Below, piece by piece: positions 1 through 10,907 of a DNA stretch of 12,794 nt. The DNA comes from Alphaproteobacteria bacterium (lineage in GTDB: Bacteria; Pseudomonadota; Alphaproteobacteria; Sphingomonadales; Sphingomonadaceae). How positions within the stretch are numbered: the stretch's first letter is position 1; the number at the start of each line of letters is the position of its first letter. The notes beneath the pieces are model-generated. The model had not been told where the DNA came from, searched no databases, and was given only the letters and a program-made list of their open reading frames with translations. The position numbers and the translations under genes were made by a program. The DNA is taken from assembly GCA_016650315.1 (NCBI GenBank), contig JAENVZ010000224.1, positions 1-12,794 of the forward strand, given 5' to 3'.

Positions 1-1022
1 CGGTCGAGGTTGCGGGCAAGAGCTATCGCGCGAAGAATATCGTCATCGCGACGGGTTCCTCGGTCACGCCGCTGCCGGGCGTAGAGGCCGATGGCAAGGT
101 TATCGTCGATAGCACGGGCGCGCTGGCGCTGCCCAAGGTGCCGGGGCACATGGTCGTTATTGGCGGCGGGGTGATCGGGCTGGAACTGGGTTCGGTCTGG
201 CGGCGTCTGGGCGCGAAAGTGACGGTCGTTGAATTCCTTGACCAGATACTCCCCGGCATGGACGGTGAAGTCCGCAAGGAAGCCGCCAAGCTGTTCAAGA
301 AACAGGGTTTTGACATCAAGCTTTCCACCAAGGTGACTGGCGCGACCGTCAAGGGCGGCAAGGCGACGTTGACCGTCGAACCGGCCAAGGGCGGTGCGGC
401 AGAAACCATTGAGGCCGATTGCGTGCTGGTGGCGATTGGCCGCAAGCCCAATATCGATGGCCTTGCACTCGACAAGGCGGGTCTTGCCGTCAATGCGCGC
501 GGACAGATTGAAACCGATCACGACTTCGCGACCAAGGTTGCGGGCGTCTGGGCGGTCGGCGACGTCATTCCCGGCCCGATGCTCGCCCATAAGGCAGAGG
601 ATGAAGGGATTGCCGTTGCGGAAAATATCGCGGGCCTGACCGGCATTGTGAACCATGATGTGATCCCGGCGGTCGTTTATACCTATCCTGAAATCGCCAG
701 CGTCGGTTTGACCGAAGAACAGGCGAAGGAACGCGGCGCGATCAAGGTCGGCAAATTCCCGATGATGGCGAACAGCAGAGCCAAGACCAATCGCGAGACC
801 GACGGTTTCGTCAAGGTCATTGCCGATGCTGAAACCGACAAGGTGCTGGGCGTTCATATCATCGCGTCGGTTGCCGGCACGATGATCGCGCAGGCGGCGC
901 AGGCGATGGAATTCGGCGCGTCGTCGGAGGACATCGCCTATACCTGTCACGCGCATCCCACGCATAATGAAGCGGTCAAGGAAGCGGCGATGGCGGTGTT
1001 GGGTAAGCCCATTCATATCTGA
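1..1022 (+). CDS. lpdA: Dihydrolipoyl dehydrogenase (E3), 5'-truncated
   Basis: This flavoprotein reoxidises the dihydrolipoyl arm of 2-oxoacid dehydrogenase complexes (pyruvate, 2-oxoglutarate or branched-chain) and reduces NAD+ in the cytoplasm. The reading frame is open from base 3, so about 339 residues are visible of a family length near 465. The missing N-terminus would carry the FAD dinucleotide fold and the redox CxxxxC pair. Visible parts are an ATGSS segment, the NAD-binding Rossmann motif (GGGVIGLELG) after position 138, an FAD-contacting AVGDV segment near 555, and the dimerisation domain. The C-terminus carries the catalytic His-Glu dyad in HAHPTHNE, followed by the family-typical ending GKPIHI. 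The stop is TGA at 1020-1022. An internal ATG at 138 is not the start, because homology continues upstream. Which complex it serves cannot be told from this window. Confidence 0.96.
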   Translation, partial: VEVAGKSYRAKNIVIATGSSVTPLPGVEADGKVIVDSTGALALPKVPGHMVVIGGGVIGLELGSVWRRLGAKVTVVEFLDQILPGMDGEVRKEAAKLFKKQGFDIKLSTKVTGATVKGGKATLTVEPAKGGAAETIEADCVLVAIGRKPNIDGLALDKAGLAVNARGQIETDHDFATKVAGVWAVGDVIPGPMLAHKAEDEGIAVAENIAGLTGIVNHDVIPAVVYTYPEIASVGLTEEQAKERGAIKVGKFPMMANSRAKTNRETDGFVKVIADAETDKVLGVHIIASVAGTMIAQAAQAMEFGASSEDIAYTCHAHPTHNEAVKEAAMAVLGKPIHI

Positions 1023-5889: not shown

Positions 5890-7038
5890 ATGCTGGAGGC
5901 GCTGGATTTCGCTCTGGGCGAAAATGCCGACATGATTCGGGAGAGCACTGCGCGCTTTGCCGCCGACCGAATTGCGCCGCTGGCAGTCAAAATCGACGCG
6001 GACGACTGGTTCCCGCGTGATCTGTGGCCCGCAATGGGTGAACTGGGCCTGCACGGGATCACGGTTGAGGAAGAATGGGGCGGCCTGGGTCTGGGCTATC
6101 TGGAGCATGTTGTCGCGGTTGAAGAAGTGTCCCGCGCATCGGCGTCCATCGGGCTTTCCTATGGCGCACACAGCAATCTGTGCGTCAATCAGATCCGCCG
6201 TTGGGGCAATGACGCACAAAAGGCGAAATATCTGCCCAAGCTGATTTCGGGTGAACATGTCGGTTCGTTGGCCATGTCGGAGGCAAATGCCGGATCGGAC
6301 GTGGTCGGCATGAAGCTGAAAGCCGACAAGAAGGGCGACCGCTATATTCTCAACGGCACGAAATTCTGGATCACCAACGCGGCTTATGCCGACACGCTGG
6401 TCGTCTATGCCAAAACAGGAGAGGGATCGCGCGGGATAACGGCCTTTCTGATTGAAAAGGACATGCCGGGCTTTTCGATCGGGCAGAAGATCGACAAGAT
6501 GGGCATGCGGGGATCGCCCACCGCCGAACTGGTGTTCGACGATTGCGAAGTGCCGGCAGACAATGTGATGGGGCCGGAAAATGGCGGCGTGGGCGTGCTG
6601 ATGTCCGGCCTTGATTATGAACGCGCCGTGCTGTCGGGCATTCAACTGGGCATCATGCAGGCCTGCCTTGATGTGGTGCTGCCCTATGTACGGGAACGCA
6701 AACAATTCGGTAAGGCTATTGGAGGATTTCAACTGATGCAGGCGAAGATTGCCGATATGTATGTCGCTTTGAATTCGTCGCGTGCCTATGTCTATACTGT
6801 GGCGCGCAATTGCGATGCGGGAAACACCACCCGCTTTGATGCGGCAGGCGCGATTTTGCTGGCGAGCGAGAACGCCGTGAAAGTCAGCCTTGACGCGATT
6901 CAAGCGTTGGGCGGCGCGGGTTATACAAAGGATTGGCCGGTCGAACGCTATATGCGCGATGCCAAGTTGCTCGACATCGGTGCTGGCACCAACGAGATTC
7001 GCCGGATGCTGATCGGGCGGGAGTTGATCGGGGTATGA
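5890..7038 (+). CDS. liuA: Isovaleryl-CoA dehydrogenase
   Basis: This FAD-dependent acyl-CoA dehydrogenase oxidises isovaleryl-CoA to 3-methylcrotonyl-CoA in leucine catabolism and passes electrons to ETF. The 382-residue protein has the ACAD layout: an N-terminal helical domain, a middle beta domain ([26 protein letters not shown]), and a C-terminal helical domain ([45 protein letters not shown]). Two features mark it as isovaleryl- rather than short/medium-chain type. The catalytic Glu is in the [10 protein letters not shown] helix (codon 6619-6621), and the alternative Glu site near the C-terminus is replaced ([10 protein letters not shown]). The start at 5890 is chosen by its ribosome binding site; ATG at 5872 is the alternative. 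It is the first gene of the operon and its stop overlaps the liuB ATG (ATGA, 7035-7038). Confidence 0.95.
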
Positions 7039-8636
7039 GCGCGCCTGTGATGGACACGCGCATCGCTCCCGATAGCGAGAGCTTTCGCGCCAATGCTGAA
7101 CATAATCGGGCGTTACGTGACGACCTTTATGCGCGGGTTAGGCAGACGGCGCTGGGCGGTTCGGAAAAGCATCGGGAACGCCATGCCGCACGTGGCAAGC
7201 TGTTGCCGCGTGAACGGGTGGAACGCCTGCTTGATCCCGGTTCGCCTTTTCTGGAGATCGGCCAGCTTGCCGCCTGCGATATGTATCATGGTGAGGTTCC
7301 AGGCGCGGGCCTGATCGCGGGGATCGGTCGCGTGTCGGGGCGGCAGGTGATGATCTTATGCAACGATGCGACGGTGAAGGGCGGCACCTATTACCCCATG
7401 ACCGTCAAGAAGCATCTGCGTGCGCAGGAGATCGCGGCGGAAAATCGGCTGCCCTGCGTCTATCTGGTCGATTCAGGCGGTGCCAACCTGCCGCATCAGG
7501 CAGAGGTTTTCCCTGACAAGGAGCATTTCGGGCGCATATTTTTCAATCAGGCGCAGATGTCGGCCAAGGGTATCCCACAGATTGCCTGCGTCATGGGCAG
7601 TTGCACGGCTGGCGGGGCTTATGTACCCGCCATGTCGGACGAAACGGTGATCGTGCGCAATCAGGGCACGATTTTTCTGGCTGGCCCGCCATTAGTTAAG
7701 GCCGCGACGGGCGAAGAAATCAGCGCCGAAGAACTGGGCGGCGCGGAAACGCATGGACGTCGTTCGGGCGTTGTCGATCATGTTGCGGAAAATGACGAAC
7801 ATGCGTTGTCCATCGTGCGCGATATCGTTTCCACCCTGCCGAAAGACCATGTGCCAGACGTGGCGATGAAAGACCCGCGCCCGCCCAAATATGCCATGAA
7901 GGAACTGTACGGCATCATCCCCGATGACGTTCGCGCGCCCTATGATGTGCACGAAGTCATTGCCCGTATTGTCGATGGCAGCGAATTTCATGAGTTCAAG
8001 GCGCTCTATGGCAGCTCGCTGGTCTGCGGCTTTGCCCATATCTGGGGCATGCCGGTGGCGATCCTTGCCAATAATGGCGTCTTGTTTTCCGAAAGCGCGC
8101 AAAAGGGCGCGCATTTCATTGAGCTGGCCTGTCAGCGGCGGATACCTTTGCTGTTCCTTCAGAATATCTCCTGCTTCATGGTCGGCGGCAAATATGAGGC
8201 GGAGGGCATCGCCAAACATGGTGCAAAGCTGGTCACCGCCGTTGCGACGGCGCAAGTGCCCAAGGTGACGGTGCTGATCGGCGGCAGTTTCGGCGCGGGC
8301 AATTACGGCATGTGCGGGCGGGCCTATTCGCCCCGCTTCCTGTTTACCTGGCCCAACAGCCGGATCAGCGTGATGGGCGGCGAACAGGCAGCGAGCGTAC
8401 TTGCCACGGTCCACCGTGACGCCGAAAAATGGACGGCGGAAGACGTTGAAGCCTTCAAGGCGCCAATTCGCAAGAAATATGAGGATGAGGGCAATCCCTG
8501 GCACGCAACGGCACGCCTGTGGGACGATGGCGTGATCGATCCGGCGCAGACACGTGACGTGCTGGGGATGGCGTTTGCGGCGACGCTGAATGCGCCGGTA
8601 CCGGAACGGGCGCAATTCGGCATATTCAGGATGTGA
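7035..8636 (+). CDS. liuB: Methylcrotonyl-CoA carboxylase, carboxyltransferase (beta) subunit
   Basis: This 533-residue subunit (also MccB) transfers CO2 from carboxybiotin to 3-methylcrotonyl-CoA, giving 3-methylglutaconyl-CoA. Both crotonase-like carboxyltransferase halves are visible. The N half has [37 protein letters not shown] and [16 protein letters not shown]. The C half has [47 protein letters not shown] and [13 protein letters not shown]. Length and motifs match MCC beta rather than propionyl-CoA carboxylase beta. The start is the ATG at 7035, overlapping the liuA stop (translational coupling); an in-frame ATG at 6933 would lie inside liuA and is rejected. Its partner liuD lies 426 nt downstream, separated by a 386-bp inserted element. 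Confidence 0.95.
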
Positions 8637-8660
8637 TGATGGGAAGCCGCATCCTACCCT

Positions 8661-8688
8661 GTCATGCTGAACTTGTTTCAGCATCCAT
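8661..8688 (+). repeat. Left terminal inverted repeat (REP-like hairpin)
   Basis: This copy is the exact reverse complement of 9019-9046 over 28 bp; flanking bases on both sides do not match. Within it ATGCTGAA (8664-8671) and TTCAGCAT (8677-8684) form a perfect 8-bp stem around a 5-nt loop. Translated, one strand reads HAELVSASI and the other MLNLFQHP, peptides I recall as recurring spurious translations of a dispersed repeat in many bacterial genomes. The stop codon of the GIY-YIG gene (8678-8680) lies inside it. Confidence 0.9.
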
Positions 8689-8995
8689 CCCGCCGCGAAG
8701 GTGGAAGTCCAAGACCTGGCGCAAGATCAGCCCAGTGCGGATTTTCGCTTTCTATGAGGTTGATCTTCCATTGTCGATGCCAGTTCTTCAATTGCTTTTC
8801 GCGCCTGATCGCATTTTCCATGTCACCGAACATCTCGAAACGGACAAGGCTATGAACGGAATATCGGTTCGTGAAACCGGGCGTAGCGGCAGCGCGATGC
8901 TGGTAGAGACGAGCAACAAGGTTCGATGTTACGCCGATATAGAGCGTGCCGTAAGGCGTGCTGGAAAGGATGTAGACGCAGGGTTGTTTTTCCAT
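8678..8995 (-). CDS. GIY-YIG family endonuclease, encoded antisense inside the element
   Basis: The 105-residue protein is a small single-domain GIY-YIG nuclease of the UvrC-Intron-type (URI, COG2827-like) group. Visible motifs are the GIY strand (CVYIL, residues 6-10) and YIG (LYIGVT, 18-23). The catalytic Arg29 and His33 are in ARLYQHR, and the metal-binding Glu66 is in RREKQLKNWHRQWKINLI. All expected catalytic residues are present, so it may be active. The start MEKQ at 8993-8995 fits family N-termini but has no Shine-Dalgarno. An in-frame ATG inside the right repeat (9041-9043) would give 121 residues beginning MLNLFQHPF. Transcribed against the operon, it has only about 20-60 nt for a promoter. 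The last codons and stop come from the left repeat. Function is unknown; processing of the repeats is a reasonable hypothesis. Confidence 0.83.
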   Translation of the reverse strand: MEKQPCVYILSSTPYGTLYIGVTSNLVARLYQHRAAATPGFTNRYSVHSLVRFEMFGDMENAIRREKQLKNWHRQWKINLIESENPHWADLAPGLGLPPSRRDGC

Positions 8996-9018
8996 AGCAA
9001 GTCGGAGCGTGCCGATAA

Positions 9019-9046
9019 ATGGATGCTGAAACAAGTTCAGCATGAC
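9019..9046 (-). repeat. Right terminal inverted repeat (REP-like hairpin)
   Basis: This is the exact inverted partner of 8661-8688, with the same internal 8-bp stem. It contains two potential start codons: ATG on the - strand (9041-9043) in frame with the nuclease, and ATG on the + strand (9042-9044) in frame with liuD. Confidence 0.9.
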
Positions 9047-9049
9047 GAT

Positions 9050-9056
9050 AGGGGAG
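9050..9056 (+). promoter_or_regulatory. Ribosome binding site deciding the liuD GTG start
   Basis: AGGGGAG lies 6 nt before GTG 9063-9065, which gives the family-typical N-terminus (M)LKSLLIANRGEIA. The in-frame ATG at 9042 lies inside the element's repeat, has no ribosome binding site, and would add seven non-homologous residues. Confidence 0.75.
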
Positions 9057-9062
9057 ACGCTG

Positions 9063-10907
9063 GTGCTTAAATCCCTTCTTATCGCCAATCGTGGCGAAAT
9101 TGCCTGCCGGATTATCCGCACGGCGCGTGCCATGGGTATTCGCACTATTGCGGTCTATTCCGATGCGGATGCGCAGGCGATGCATGTCGCCCATGCCGAT
9201 GAGGCCGTGCATATCGGGCCGTCGCCAGTACGCGAAAGCTATTTGCTCGGCGACAAGATCATTGCTGCGGCGAAAGCTACCGGTGCAGAAGCGATCCATC
9301 CCGGTTATGGCTTCCTTTCCGAAAACGCCGCGTTCGCGCAGGCGGTGATTGATGCCGGACTCATATGGGTCGGGCCAAGGCCGGACAGCATCACCGCCAT
9401 GGGCCTGAAAGATGCGGCCAAGCAATTGATGCAGGACGCTGGCGTCCCCACCACGCCGGGCTATCTGGGTGCGGACCAATCCCCCAAACACCTTGCAAAG
9501 GAAGCGGAGGCCATTGGCTATCCCGTCCTGATCAAAGCAGTCGCGGGTGGCGGCGGCAAAGGGATGCGCAAGGTAGATGCCGCAGGCGATTTTGCCGATG
9601 CCCTTGTATCCTGTCAGCGGGAGGCGGCTTCCTCCTTTGGCAATGATAGCGTGTTGCTGGAAAAATGGGTGACCAACCCGCGCCATATCGAGGTGCAGGT
9701 GTTCGGCGACACCCACGGCAATGTCGTCCACCTGTTCGAACGCGACTGTTCGCTCCAGCGCCGCCACCAGAAGGTAATCGAGGAAGCGCCCGCGCCCGGC
9801 ATGGATGCGGAAACGCGTGAAGCGATCTGCGCGGCGGCGGTGCGTGCGGCCAAGGCCGTCGATTATGTCGGCGCGGGGACGATTGAGTTCATCGCTGACG
9901 GATCGGAGGGGCTTCGCGCCGACCGCATCTGGTTCATGGAAATGAATACAAGGCTTCAGGTCGAACATCCGGTGACCGAAGAGATCACCGGAGTGGACCT
10001 TGTCGAATGGCAGTTGCGCGTCGCCAGCGGTGAGGCTCTGCCAAAGCGGCAGGAGGAACTGGCGATCAACGGTTGGGCGATGGAAGCGCGGCTTTATGCC
10101 GAGGATCCGGCCAAGGGTTTCCTGCCCAGCATCGGCCGGCTTGAAACGTTCGATCTGGGCGATGCCTACCGGATCGATACCGGGGTGGAGCAGGGCGCCG
10201 ACATATCGCCCTTCTATGACCCGATGATTGCAAAGGTCATTGCCTGGGGTGATGACCGTGACGCCGCCCGTCTGTCGCTCGCGGCAACATTGGCCGATAG
10301 CGCGGTGTGGCCGGTTCGAACCAATGCGGGATTTCTTGTCAAGGCGCTGGAGCATCCCGCCTTTGTCGCCGCAACGATCGACACGGGCCTGATCGGGCGC
10401 GAAGGCGATGCGTTACTCGCCGCTCTGCGGCCTTCGGATGAAGCGCTGGCCGATGGCGCGTCGGCGCTGGTTGACGGCGGCGGGCTAAACGGTTTCCGGC
10501 TGAATGCGCCGCATAAGCGGGAAGGCCATTTCCTGCTGGATGGCGAACCTGTGACGGTGCGGATTGGTGATGTCGCCCAAAACGTCGGACCTGCCGATTC
10601 AATTTTGATCGCTGAGGGTGGCCAGACCTGGGAACTGACGCCCTGGCGTGCGGCGGGGACAGAAGGTGCAGGGGCTGGCGACGGTGCGATTCTTTCGCCC
10701 ATGCCTGGCCGCATCATTGCGGTATCCGTTGGGCTGGGCGAACAGGTGATAAAGGGTCAAAAACTCGTCACGCTGGAAGCCATGAAGATGGAGCATAGCC
10801 TGACCGCGCCCTTCGATGGCACAGTTGCAGAACTGAGTGCTGTTGATGGTGCTCAGGTATCGGAAGGCGCGCTGCTGGCGCGAATCGAAACGAAGGATGA
10901 GGGCTAG
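9063..10907 (+). CDS. liuD: Methylcrotonyl-CoA carboxylase, biotin-containing (alpha) subunit
   Basis: This 614-residue subunit (also MccA) carboxylates its biotin with ATP and bicarbonate for the LiuB carboxyltransferase. The biotin carboxylase part (about residues 1-445) has LIANRGEIACRIIRTAR, the ATP-grasp glycine loop KAVAGGGGKGMRKV, HIEVQVFGD, ERDCSLQRRHQKVIEEAPAP and the catalytic MNTRLQVEHPVTEEITG. A linker (BT-like) region follows, then a C-terminal biotinyl domain with biotin acceptor Lys575 in EAMKMEHSL. The GTG start at 9063 is chosen for its ribosome binding site and homology; ATG 9042 is the alternative. The element upstream appears to have spared both the gene and its ribosome binding site. 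Its stop (TAG 10905-10907) abuts the next gene's ATG. Confidence 0.95.
   Translation: MLKSLLIANRGEIACRIIRTARAMGIRTIAVYSDADAQAMHVAHADEAVHIGPSPVRESYLLGDKIIAAAKATGAEAIHPGYGFLSENAAFAQAVIDAGLIWVGPRPDSITAMGLKDAAKQLMQDAGVPTTPGYLGADQSPKHLAKEAEAIGYPVLIKAVAGGGGKGMRKVDAAGDFADALVSCQREAASSFGNDSVLLEKWVTNPRHIEVQVFGDTHGNVVHLFERDCSLQRRHQKVIEEAPAPGMDAETREAICAAAVRAAKAVDYVGAGTIEFIADGSEGLRADRIWFMEMNTRLQVEHPVTEEITGVDLVEWQLRVASGEALPKRQEELAINGWAMEARLYAEDPAKGFLPSIGRLETFDLGDAYRIDTGVEQGADISPFYDPMIAKVIAWGDDRDAARLSLAATLADSAVWPVRTNAGFLVKALEHPAFVAATIDTGLIGREGDALLAALRPSDEALADGASALVDGGGLNGFRLNAPHKREGHFLLDGEPVTVRIGDVAQNVGPADSILIAEGGQTWELTPWRAAGTEGAGAGDGAILSPMPGRIIAVSVGLGEQVIKGQKLVTLEAMKMEHSLTAPFDGTVAELSAVDGAQVSEGALLARIETKDEG

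Follow-up and report, generated by a model that had tools for sequence, protein, structure and literature searches.

We describe a compact unit at positions 8660-9047 of the window (the whole stretch of alphaproteobacterial DNA analysed here, 12,794 nucleotides long), in which the gene of a small GIY-YIG endonuclease is enclosed by two inverted REP sequences of the CGTC type. With a probability that we put at about 0.72, the segment is a REP-bounded unit whose nuclease would serve as the dedicated partner of CGTC REPs, much as RAYTs serve GTAG REPs; the estimate derives from comparison of sequences and genomes. Enzyme and repeat change together across genomes, and this makes the nuclease a candidate partner of this REP family. 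The initial annotation, which suggested the role of a RAYT for the gene, is thereby upheld at the level of association by the inverted flanking repeats, the co-divergence of enzyme and repeat class, the copy numbers and the existence of empty sites. The link between a GIY-YIG gene and CGTC REPs is the part that may be new, its novelty being uncertain.

A repeat-bounded nuclease gene at a carboxylase junction

A repeat search of the window recovered two 28-nt arms (8661-8688 and 9019-9046) that are 100% complementary and separated by 330 nt, in agreement with the perfect 28-bp inverted repeats originally noted around an antisense GIY-YIG gene at the liuB-liuD junction. Each arm forms a hairpin with an 8-bp stem and a 5-nt loop (folding z -3.05 and -4.19), so that the REP-like character ascribed to the repeats also holds. 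The unit extends over 8660-9047 when its 4-nt tags, TGTC on the left and CGTC on the right, are included. The left REP reads TGTC-ATGCTGAA-CTTGT-TTCAGCAT-CCA, and the right one is identical except for its CGTC tag and lies inverted. The features of the region are as follows.

6933..8636, + strand: carboxyltransferase gene upstream of the unit (PF01039, E 3.5e-156), whose orthologues served the junction test
8660..8687, + strand: left CGTC-2-type REP; tag TGTC 8660-8663, stem 8664-8671 and 8677-8684, loop CTTGT, tail CCA 8685-8687
8678..8995, - strand: GIY-YIG nuclease gene (PF01541), 105 aa; ATG 8995-8993, stop 8680-8678 within the left REP
9020..9047, - strand: right REP, inverted; CGTC tag 9047-9044 outward, CCA tail 9022-9020 inward
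9063..10907, + strand: biotin carboxylase gene, likely start GTG 9063

We read the two flanking genes as those probably encoding the beta (6933..8636, liuB-like) and alpha (9063..10907, liuD-like) subunits of methylcrotonyl-CoA carboxylase (MCC). The longest open reading frame of the latter begins at 9042, within the right REP, and comparison with orthologues points to GTG 9063 as the likely true start. With this start the right REP ends 16 bp ahead of the biotin carboxylase gene, and its hairpin could influence translation of that gene. A structured RNA reading of the segment was dropped because Rfam gave no match at E ≤ 1 within positions 8500-9200.

The repeat belongs to a described class

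The repeat had at first been placed in a possible new REPIN-like unit; that the repeat itself is new we rejected, because it fits the CGTC-2 REPs already described by Di Nocera et al. 2013 (PMC3733652). As characterized there, CGTC REPs carry the tag CGTC or, in many cases, one of its variants TGTC and CCTC, a stem of 8 or 9 bp, a loop of 4-5 nt and a CCA tail, occur mostly as dimers and are found mainly in alphaproteobacteria; the dRS3 repeats of Neisseria are CGTC-1. The window arms have the CGTC or TGTC tag (CCTC being also admitted for CGTC-2), the 8-bp stem with AT-type pairs first, the 5-nt loop and the CCA tail, and they share with CGTC-2 the arrangement in dimers of opposite orientation. 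The paper reports no dedicated enzyme for these repeats and leaves their route of spread open, and its main text does not contain the term 'GIY' (PMC3733652); the association with a GIY-YIG gene is the addition made here.

The expectation that the repeat would be dispersed in many genomes proved correct: far from being unique to this locus, CGTC-2 copies occur in 157 of 298 genomes of the window's family, with up to 238 per genome. The repeat is rare in the 2.06-Mb genome of the window, which has four copies by pattern and one looser copy on contig C98, and CGTC-1 copies occur in 176 of the 298 genomes. The stem classes that we encountered include ATGCTGAA, ACCCTGAA and ATCCTGAA with the loop CTTGT, ATTCCCGC and ATCCCCGC, ATCCCGGC, and ATGCCGGA. 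Within a class, stem changes are paired. The search left two pairs unconstrained, and of 224 distinct copies in the collected loci 216 keep Watson-Crick pairing there, where independent variation of the two strands of the stem would give 82.9. Inverted doublets of the REPIN type were met in the window's genome (C238:1221-1312) and in genome G083. The latter holds 238 CGTC-2 copies in 3.1 Mb and a single nuclease match, and by eye many of its dimers have their tags inward, opposite to the orientation seen around nuclease genes.

The nuclease and its relatives

GIY-YIG (PF01541, E 2.8e-14) is the sole Pfam family matched by the window nuclease at E ≤ 0.001, and NCBIfam yielded no family at this threshold. 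The Arg, His and Glu residues to which the initial annotation had pointed (R29, H33 and E66) are invariant in 39 aligned nuclease sequences, as are Y8, Y19 and N85; we take all six to be catalytic positions of a GIY-YIG nuclease. The structure model shows a GIY-YIG domain and nothing more (mean pLDDT 84.1); for this model Foldseek ranked the GIY-YIG proteins 1zg2, Slx1 and UvrC at the top (ranks 1-15), with none at E ≤ 0.001. UPF0213 (BH0048, PDB 1zg2) and the GIY-YIG domains of Slx1 and UvrC thus have a fold in common with the window nuclease, but the match in sequence is weak (best PDB E 0.029), and we know of no REP link for any of them. The distinguishing features of RAYTs (an HUH motif, a catalytic tyrosine and the Pfam family Transposase_17) were not found in the window nuclease, GIY-YIG being its only family at E ≤ 0.001. 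A phage or defence module was considered and dropped, since 50,697 phage records gave no match at E ≤ 1e-8 and the matches in padloc (best E 0.002, to PDC-S14) and phrogs (best E 0.021) are weak.

No strict CGTC REP occurs at the loci of the five other GIY-YIG genes of the window's genome. One of them, on contig C142, belongs to the same nuclease family (~51% identity) and has inverted hairpins of a different sequence. This second family nuclease (G000:C142:9874-10092, locus L310) is located shortly before the start of an lpdA-like gene and is enclosed by its own inverted hairpins, CTCCTGC-GAAA-GCAGGAG. The tail of C142 and the head of the window (1-1022) have 8 bp in common and the lpdA-like gene reads across, which probably makes the contigs neighbours and places the two nucleases ~9 kb from each other.

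A relative from Neisseria gonorrhoeae matches the window nuclease without a break at 59.1% identity over 83% of the query and has ATTCCCGC (CGTC-1, dRS3) repeats on both sides. A 2025 paper in Nature Communications reportedly describes Ssn, a GIY-YIG family of site-specific single-strand nucleases, of which the Neisseria meningitidis member is said to interact with the NTS repeat, present in hundreds of copies, and to modulate transformation. Given the gonococcal relative and its dRS3 surroundings, we presume that the window gene most likely belongs to the Ssn family. The reported Ssn/NTS pair and the window unit both link a small GIY-YIG nuclease to an abundant repeat family; they differ in that the repeat of the Neisseria system is of another class and the window's host is alphaproteobacterial, the comparison running through the N. 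gonorrhoeae relative alone. No paper linking GIY-YIG genes to CGTC REPs was found in the literature searched, which mostly excludes subscription titles, and the term GIY is absent from the available text of the RepRanger paper (PMC12306157) and of the 2018 survey of HUH endonucleases (PMC6006769).

Association of the nuclease with CGTC REPs

For the best 80 of 564 confirmed relatives (loci L021-L100), we scored inverted repeats formed between the two 200-bp flanks of the nuclease gene; the top score reached at least 14 in 54 cases and in none of 240 pairs of control segments taken from these loci, which excludes chance for the flanking inverted repeats. REPs are 22.9 times denser beside the nuclease gene than elsewhere in these loci, and the association of repeat and nuclease lies far above chance. 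With a detector that allowed one stem mismatch and required a CGTC or TGTC tag and a fixed tail, and is therefore subject to misses as well as chance matches, a CGTC REP was found within 350 bp of 211 of 263 family genes (261 loci), and on both sides of 150. After removal of identical proteins, the two genome sets possibly including one organism twice, the corresponding figures are 196 of 248 relatives and 137 with REPs on both sides. In 103 of these 137 the nearest REPs are paired in the orientation of the window, with tags outside. The median distances of the REPs from the matched nuclease domain are 30 and 23 bp, and 83 of 263 family genes, counted with duplicates, have their stop codon within a CGTC REP.

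The loci included two sets of 30 taken as delivered by the searches plus 120 regions hand-picked from the listed matches, mostly one per genome, a sampling under which the flank counts favour close relatives; for this reason we split them by nuclease profile score. A CGTC REP accompanies 122 of 125 nucleases scoring at least 150, 59 of 74 at 130-150, 15 of 48 at 100-130 and neither (0/1) the single one below 100: the association declines with distance from the window's nuclease. Of the 51 relatives that lack a strict CGTC REP and have enough flank, 32 still show an inverted repeat scoring at least 14, several of these being CGTC-tagged with longer stems. Of eight plasmid-collection relatives inspected, drawn from 33 records with a match, the four from Sinorhizobium, Rhizobium, Planktothrix and Spirosoma had no CGTC REP within ~1.5 kb.

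Co-divergence of repeat class and nuclease

Judged by the tree and by pairwise identity, the class of REP follows the sequence of the nuclease. Mapped on the nuclease tree, REP class requires 24 changes, against at least 60 in each of 200 shuffles (173 labelled rows, with 23 rows of class 'other' omitted and a few, such as L247, fitting their class loosely). Between nucleases of different genomes, the proportion of pairs with the same REP class falls from 94% at 70-79% identity to 53% at 60-69%, 17% at 50-59% and 5% at 40-49%. The nearest nuclease predicted the REP class correctly in 148 of 173 cases when relatives of up to 95% identity were usable and in 112 (71 expected by shuffling) with relatives of up to 70%; with relatives of up to 60% it did so in 49, no better than the 70 expected by chance, which indicates that class specificity turns over. 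Labels differ in seven of ten genomes with two labelled nucleases, a difference to which we give no weight because four of the seven (G275, G088, G484, G548) involve 'other' and the label of a fifth (G107) fits loosely.

Residues 71, 73, 79, 56 and 52 are among those differing most between nucleases of the CTGAA and CCCGC classes in a comparison uncorrected for phylogeny. In the predicted model, residues 71-79 form the meeting point of helix 59-71, which bears the presumed catalytic Glu, and helix 74-84; the residues around 71, 73 and 79 are candidates for recognition of the REP class.

REP copy number tracks the nuclease of its class

A nuclease match at E ≤ 1e-20 is present in 185 of the 298 family genomes, with 1 to 7 matches each. 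According to the hand-transcribed genome tables on which the copy-number statistics are based, at least three CGTC-2 copies are found in 49 of 50 genomes with a nuclease at E ≤ 1e-42 (median 16) and in 19 of 113 genomes with none at E ≤ 1e-20 (median 0). Since the genomes are related, P values from such counts are not independent, and comparison within genera is safer: CGTC-2 copies are more numerous where a nuclease at E ≤ 1e-37 is present in 28 of the 31 genera that include species with and species lacking it, fewer in one and equal in two, and with the two flanking copies subtracted the balance is 27 genera against four.

In a joint fit, the CTGAA-type nuclease predicts CGTC-2 copies (t 12.2), with almost no contribution from the CCCGC-type (t 1.6); CGTC-1 copies depend on the CCCGC-type (t 6.7) and less on the CTGAA-type (t 4.3). 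On these genome counts the second nuclease type tracks the second REP type, giving a double dissociation. There are exceptions in both directions: at least 10 CGTC-2 copies occur in six genomes that lack a nuclease at E ≤ 1e-20, and of the 72 genomes possessing one at E ≤ 1e-37, six fall short of three copies. Twenty-seven genomes have at least 25 CGTC-1 copies without a close CCCGC-type nuclease; in at least two of them (G022 and G304), another family member adjoins ATTCCCGC repeats (L188 and L187, respectively). The window's genome, with 22 CGTC-1 and 4-5 CGTC-2 copies, likewise has no close CCCGC-type nuclease.

Occupied sites, empty sites and movement

The orthologous liuB-liuD junctions were compared, as the initial annotation had proposed, in 30 loci around MCC-alpha in the window's genome and its relatives. 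The nuclease lies between the two carboxylase genes in three of them, the window included, and in five (L102, L109, L115, L116, L127) these genes are adjacent without it; in the remainder the gap is longer or the beta gene is absent there. Locus L102 belongs to a congener, G001, which lacks the nuclease unit and any CGTC-2 copy by pattern, so the segment is not fixed in all relatives; what G001 does carry is a nuclease with ATTCCCGC repeats at its flanks (L201). Six more MCC junctions with a nuclease (L022, L030, L039, L044, L056, L072) were found among the best 80 of 564 relatives, some of which may duplicate organisms of the 30-locus set. The nucleases of the two other occupied loci, L103 and L104, are 70% and 69% identical to that of the window and the neighbouring genes 85-89%, by which measure the nuclease at this junction has diverged more quickly than the genes beside it. 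At the L072 junction the REPs beside the nuclease are reversed, with tags inward, and its nuclease stands apart from the other junction nucleases on a weakly resolved tree.

Solitary REP pairs also have empty counterparts. The pair upstream of a second biotin carboxylase gene of the window's genome (C238) is found at the same place in G022 and is absent in G001. Two G083 pairs are absent at the orthologous sites of those congeners in which both flanks align (three of four genomes for one pair, two of four for the other), and at these tested sites the congeners lack more than the REP pair alone.

The 81 nuclease loci fall into 8 recurrent neighbourhoods and 18 singletons. The largest neighbourhood, with 22 loci, is ruvA-ruvB (named from L024:2317-4384, the remaining 21 loci being assigned by homologous flanks), where the nuclease points one way in 13 loci and the other way in nine. 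That a hairpin-linked nuclease should so often sit between ruvA and ruvB, in either orientation, is curious. Other sites lie beside pheS, between a release-factor and a histidyl-tRNA-synthetase-like gene, in the gap between biotin carboxylase and methylmalonyl-CoA mutase, near gcpE and, in Azospirillum, between sufB and sufC. On the nuclease tree the neighbourhood changes 14 times, as against 39.6 when shuffled, and this conservation indicates that the gene is mostly inherited vertically and rarely moves. Nucleases sharing a junction sometimes fall into more than one clade on this weakly resolved tree, and the junction-occupancy tree has too few columns to tell single from repeated insertion.

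As to the suggestion that the nuclease gene itself spreads as a repeat-bounded cassette, a high-copy element is not borne out by its 1 to 7 matches per genome, nor by same-genome pairs, of which 2 of 16 compared are at least 95% identical (G373 and G580, the latter with a tandem copy). Genome G373 has, on different contigs, two units that agree at 99.3% of positions across 291 bp and fully across another 73 bp; their identity stops ~10-13 bp beyond the outermost REPs. A 144-bp insertion carrying a REP pair breaks one of these units (L280:793-1300), and the second contains additional sequence ahead of its right REP. The flanks of the insertion overlap by 4 bp (TTTA), which is suggestive of a target duplication; this is a single case, with ~30 bp outside each REP, and we do not take it as proof.

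Discussion

The comparisons above make it very likely that the nuclease is a class-matched partner of CGTC REPs. The unit resembles RAYT-REP units, or REPtrons, as presented by Nunvar et al. 2010 (PMC2817692). In both systems the gene lies between two inverted REPs, is paired with a specific REP class and keeps its position, while the REP stems change yet stay palindromic; RAYTs evolve faster than neighbouring genes (PMC2817692), and so does the GIY-YIG gene at the MCC junction. The co-divergence of REP class and enzyme that typifies RAYTs was likewise found for the nuclease. Non-autonomous REP pairs elsewhere in the genome are a further trait that CGTC REPs have in common with the REPINs described in the text of Bertels and Rainey 2011 (PMC3116915). 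The enzymes themselves are different, the RAYT being an HUH/tyrosine transposase associated with GTAG repeats and the window enzyme a GIY-YIG nuclease associated with CGTC repeats.

What could be the mode of action of such an enzyme? We strongly infer that the nuclease cuts CGTC REP hairpins. It would recognize the single-stranded hairpin of its own class by the CGTC tag, the stem and the CCA tail, the region of residues 71, 73 and 79 perhaps determining its class specificity, and cleavage would take place when the hairpin is single-stranded, for example on the lagging strand. Less certainly, repair or recombination after the cut might spread REP pairs, in the manner of REPINs, to intergenic sites, with the nuclease gene itself staying in a few intercistronic sites and passing mostly by vertical inheritance. 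GIY-YIG enzymes are not known to join DNA ends, and the spreading of REPs would therefore need host repair. That this GIY-YIG family constitutes the missing mobilisers of CGTC REPs, forming a second, independently evolved mobilising system for REPs that acts through hairpin cutting and host repair in place of an HUH transposase, with the unit itself occasionally copied to a new site, is a tentative proposal to which we would give somewhat less than an even chance.

In a rival reading, the nuclease would mobilise nothing and act as a gate of the Ssn type, cutting incoming or exposed single-stranded DNA that bears the repeat and thereby tuning natural transformation or recombination, the repeats being target marks accumulated by other means. 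The reported effect of the N. meningitidis nuclease and its NTS repeat on transformation speaks for such a role, as does the position of the gonococcal relative (59% identity) among CGTC-1/dRS3-type repeats. By itself, however, a gate leaves unexplained why inverted repeats bound the nuclease gene and why copy number within genera tracks the nuclease, though the accumulation of targets could account for the latter; we regard this role as a serious but rather unlikely one. Alternatively, the REP-bounded unit could be a selfish cassette that transposes or homes between intercistronic sites, with solitary REP pairs as its deletion derivatives. The nearly identical G373 units on different contigs, the variety of gene junctions occupied by nucleases and the imperfect clustering of one-junction nucleases on the weakly resolved tree speak for such a cassette. 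The rarity of closely similar same-genome pairs, one of the two being tandem, and the conservation of neighbourhoods argue against it, and since the G373 copies lie among further REPs, ordinary recombination could have copied them too, so that we consider a selfish cassette improbable.

The association might also be passive, the REPs gathering in intergenic DNA and flanking a short dispensable gene by accident, or acting as terminators. REPs do occur elsewhere, with at least one in 9 of 29 control MCC-alpha loci, two of the nine being the nuclease loci L103 and L104. The enrichment within the same loci, the predominance of one orientation, the co-divergence of REP class and the double dissociation all oppose passive association as a full explanation, which we therefore deem very improbable.

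A dedicated, class-matched enzyme would provide a directly testable answer to the question of how CGTC REPs spread. The target repeat of each nuclease would be predictable from the flanks of its own gene, and the natural pairs of nuclease and REP could be used to map how a GIY-YIG domain of 100 residues reads a hairpin. If the link has already been made in the Ssn paper, the present data would add to it a second repeat class and an evolutionary setting.
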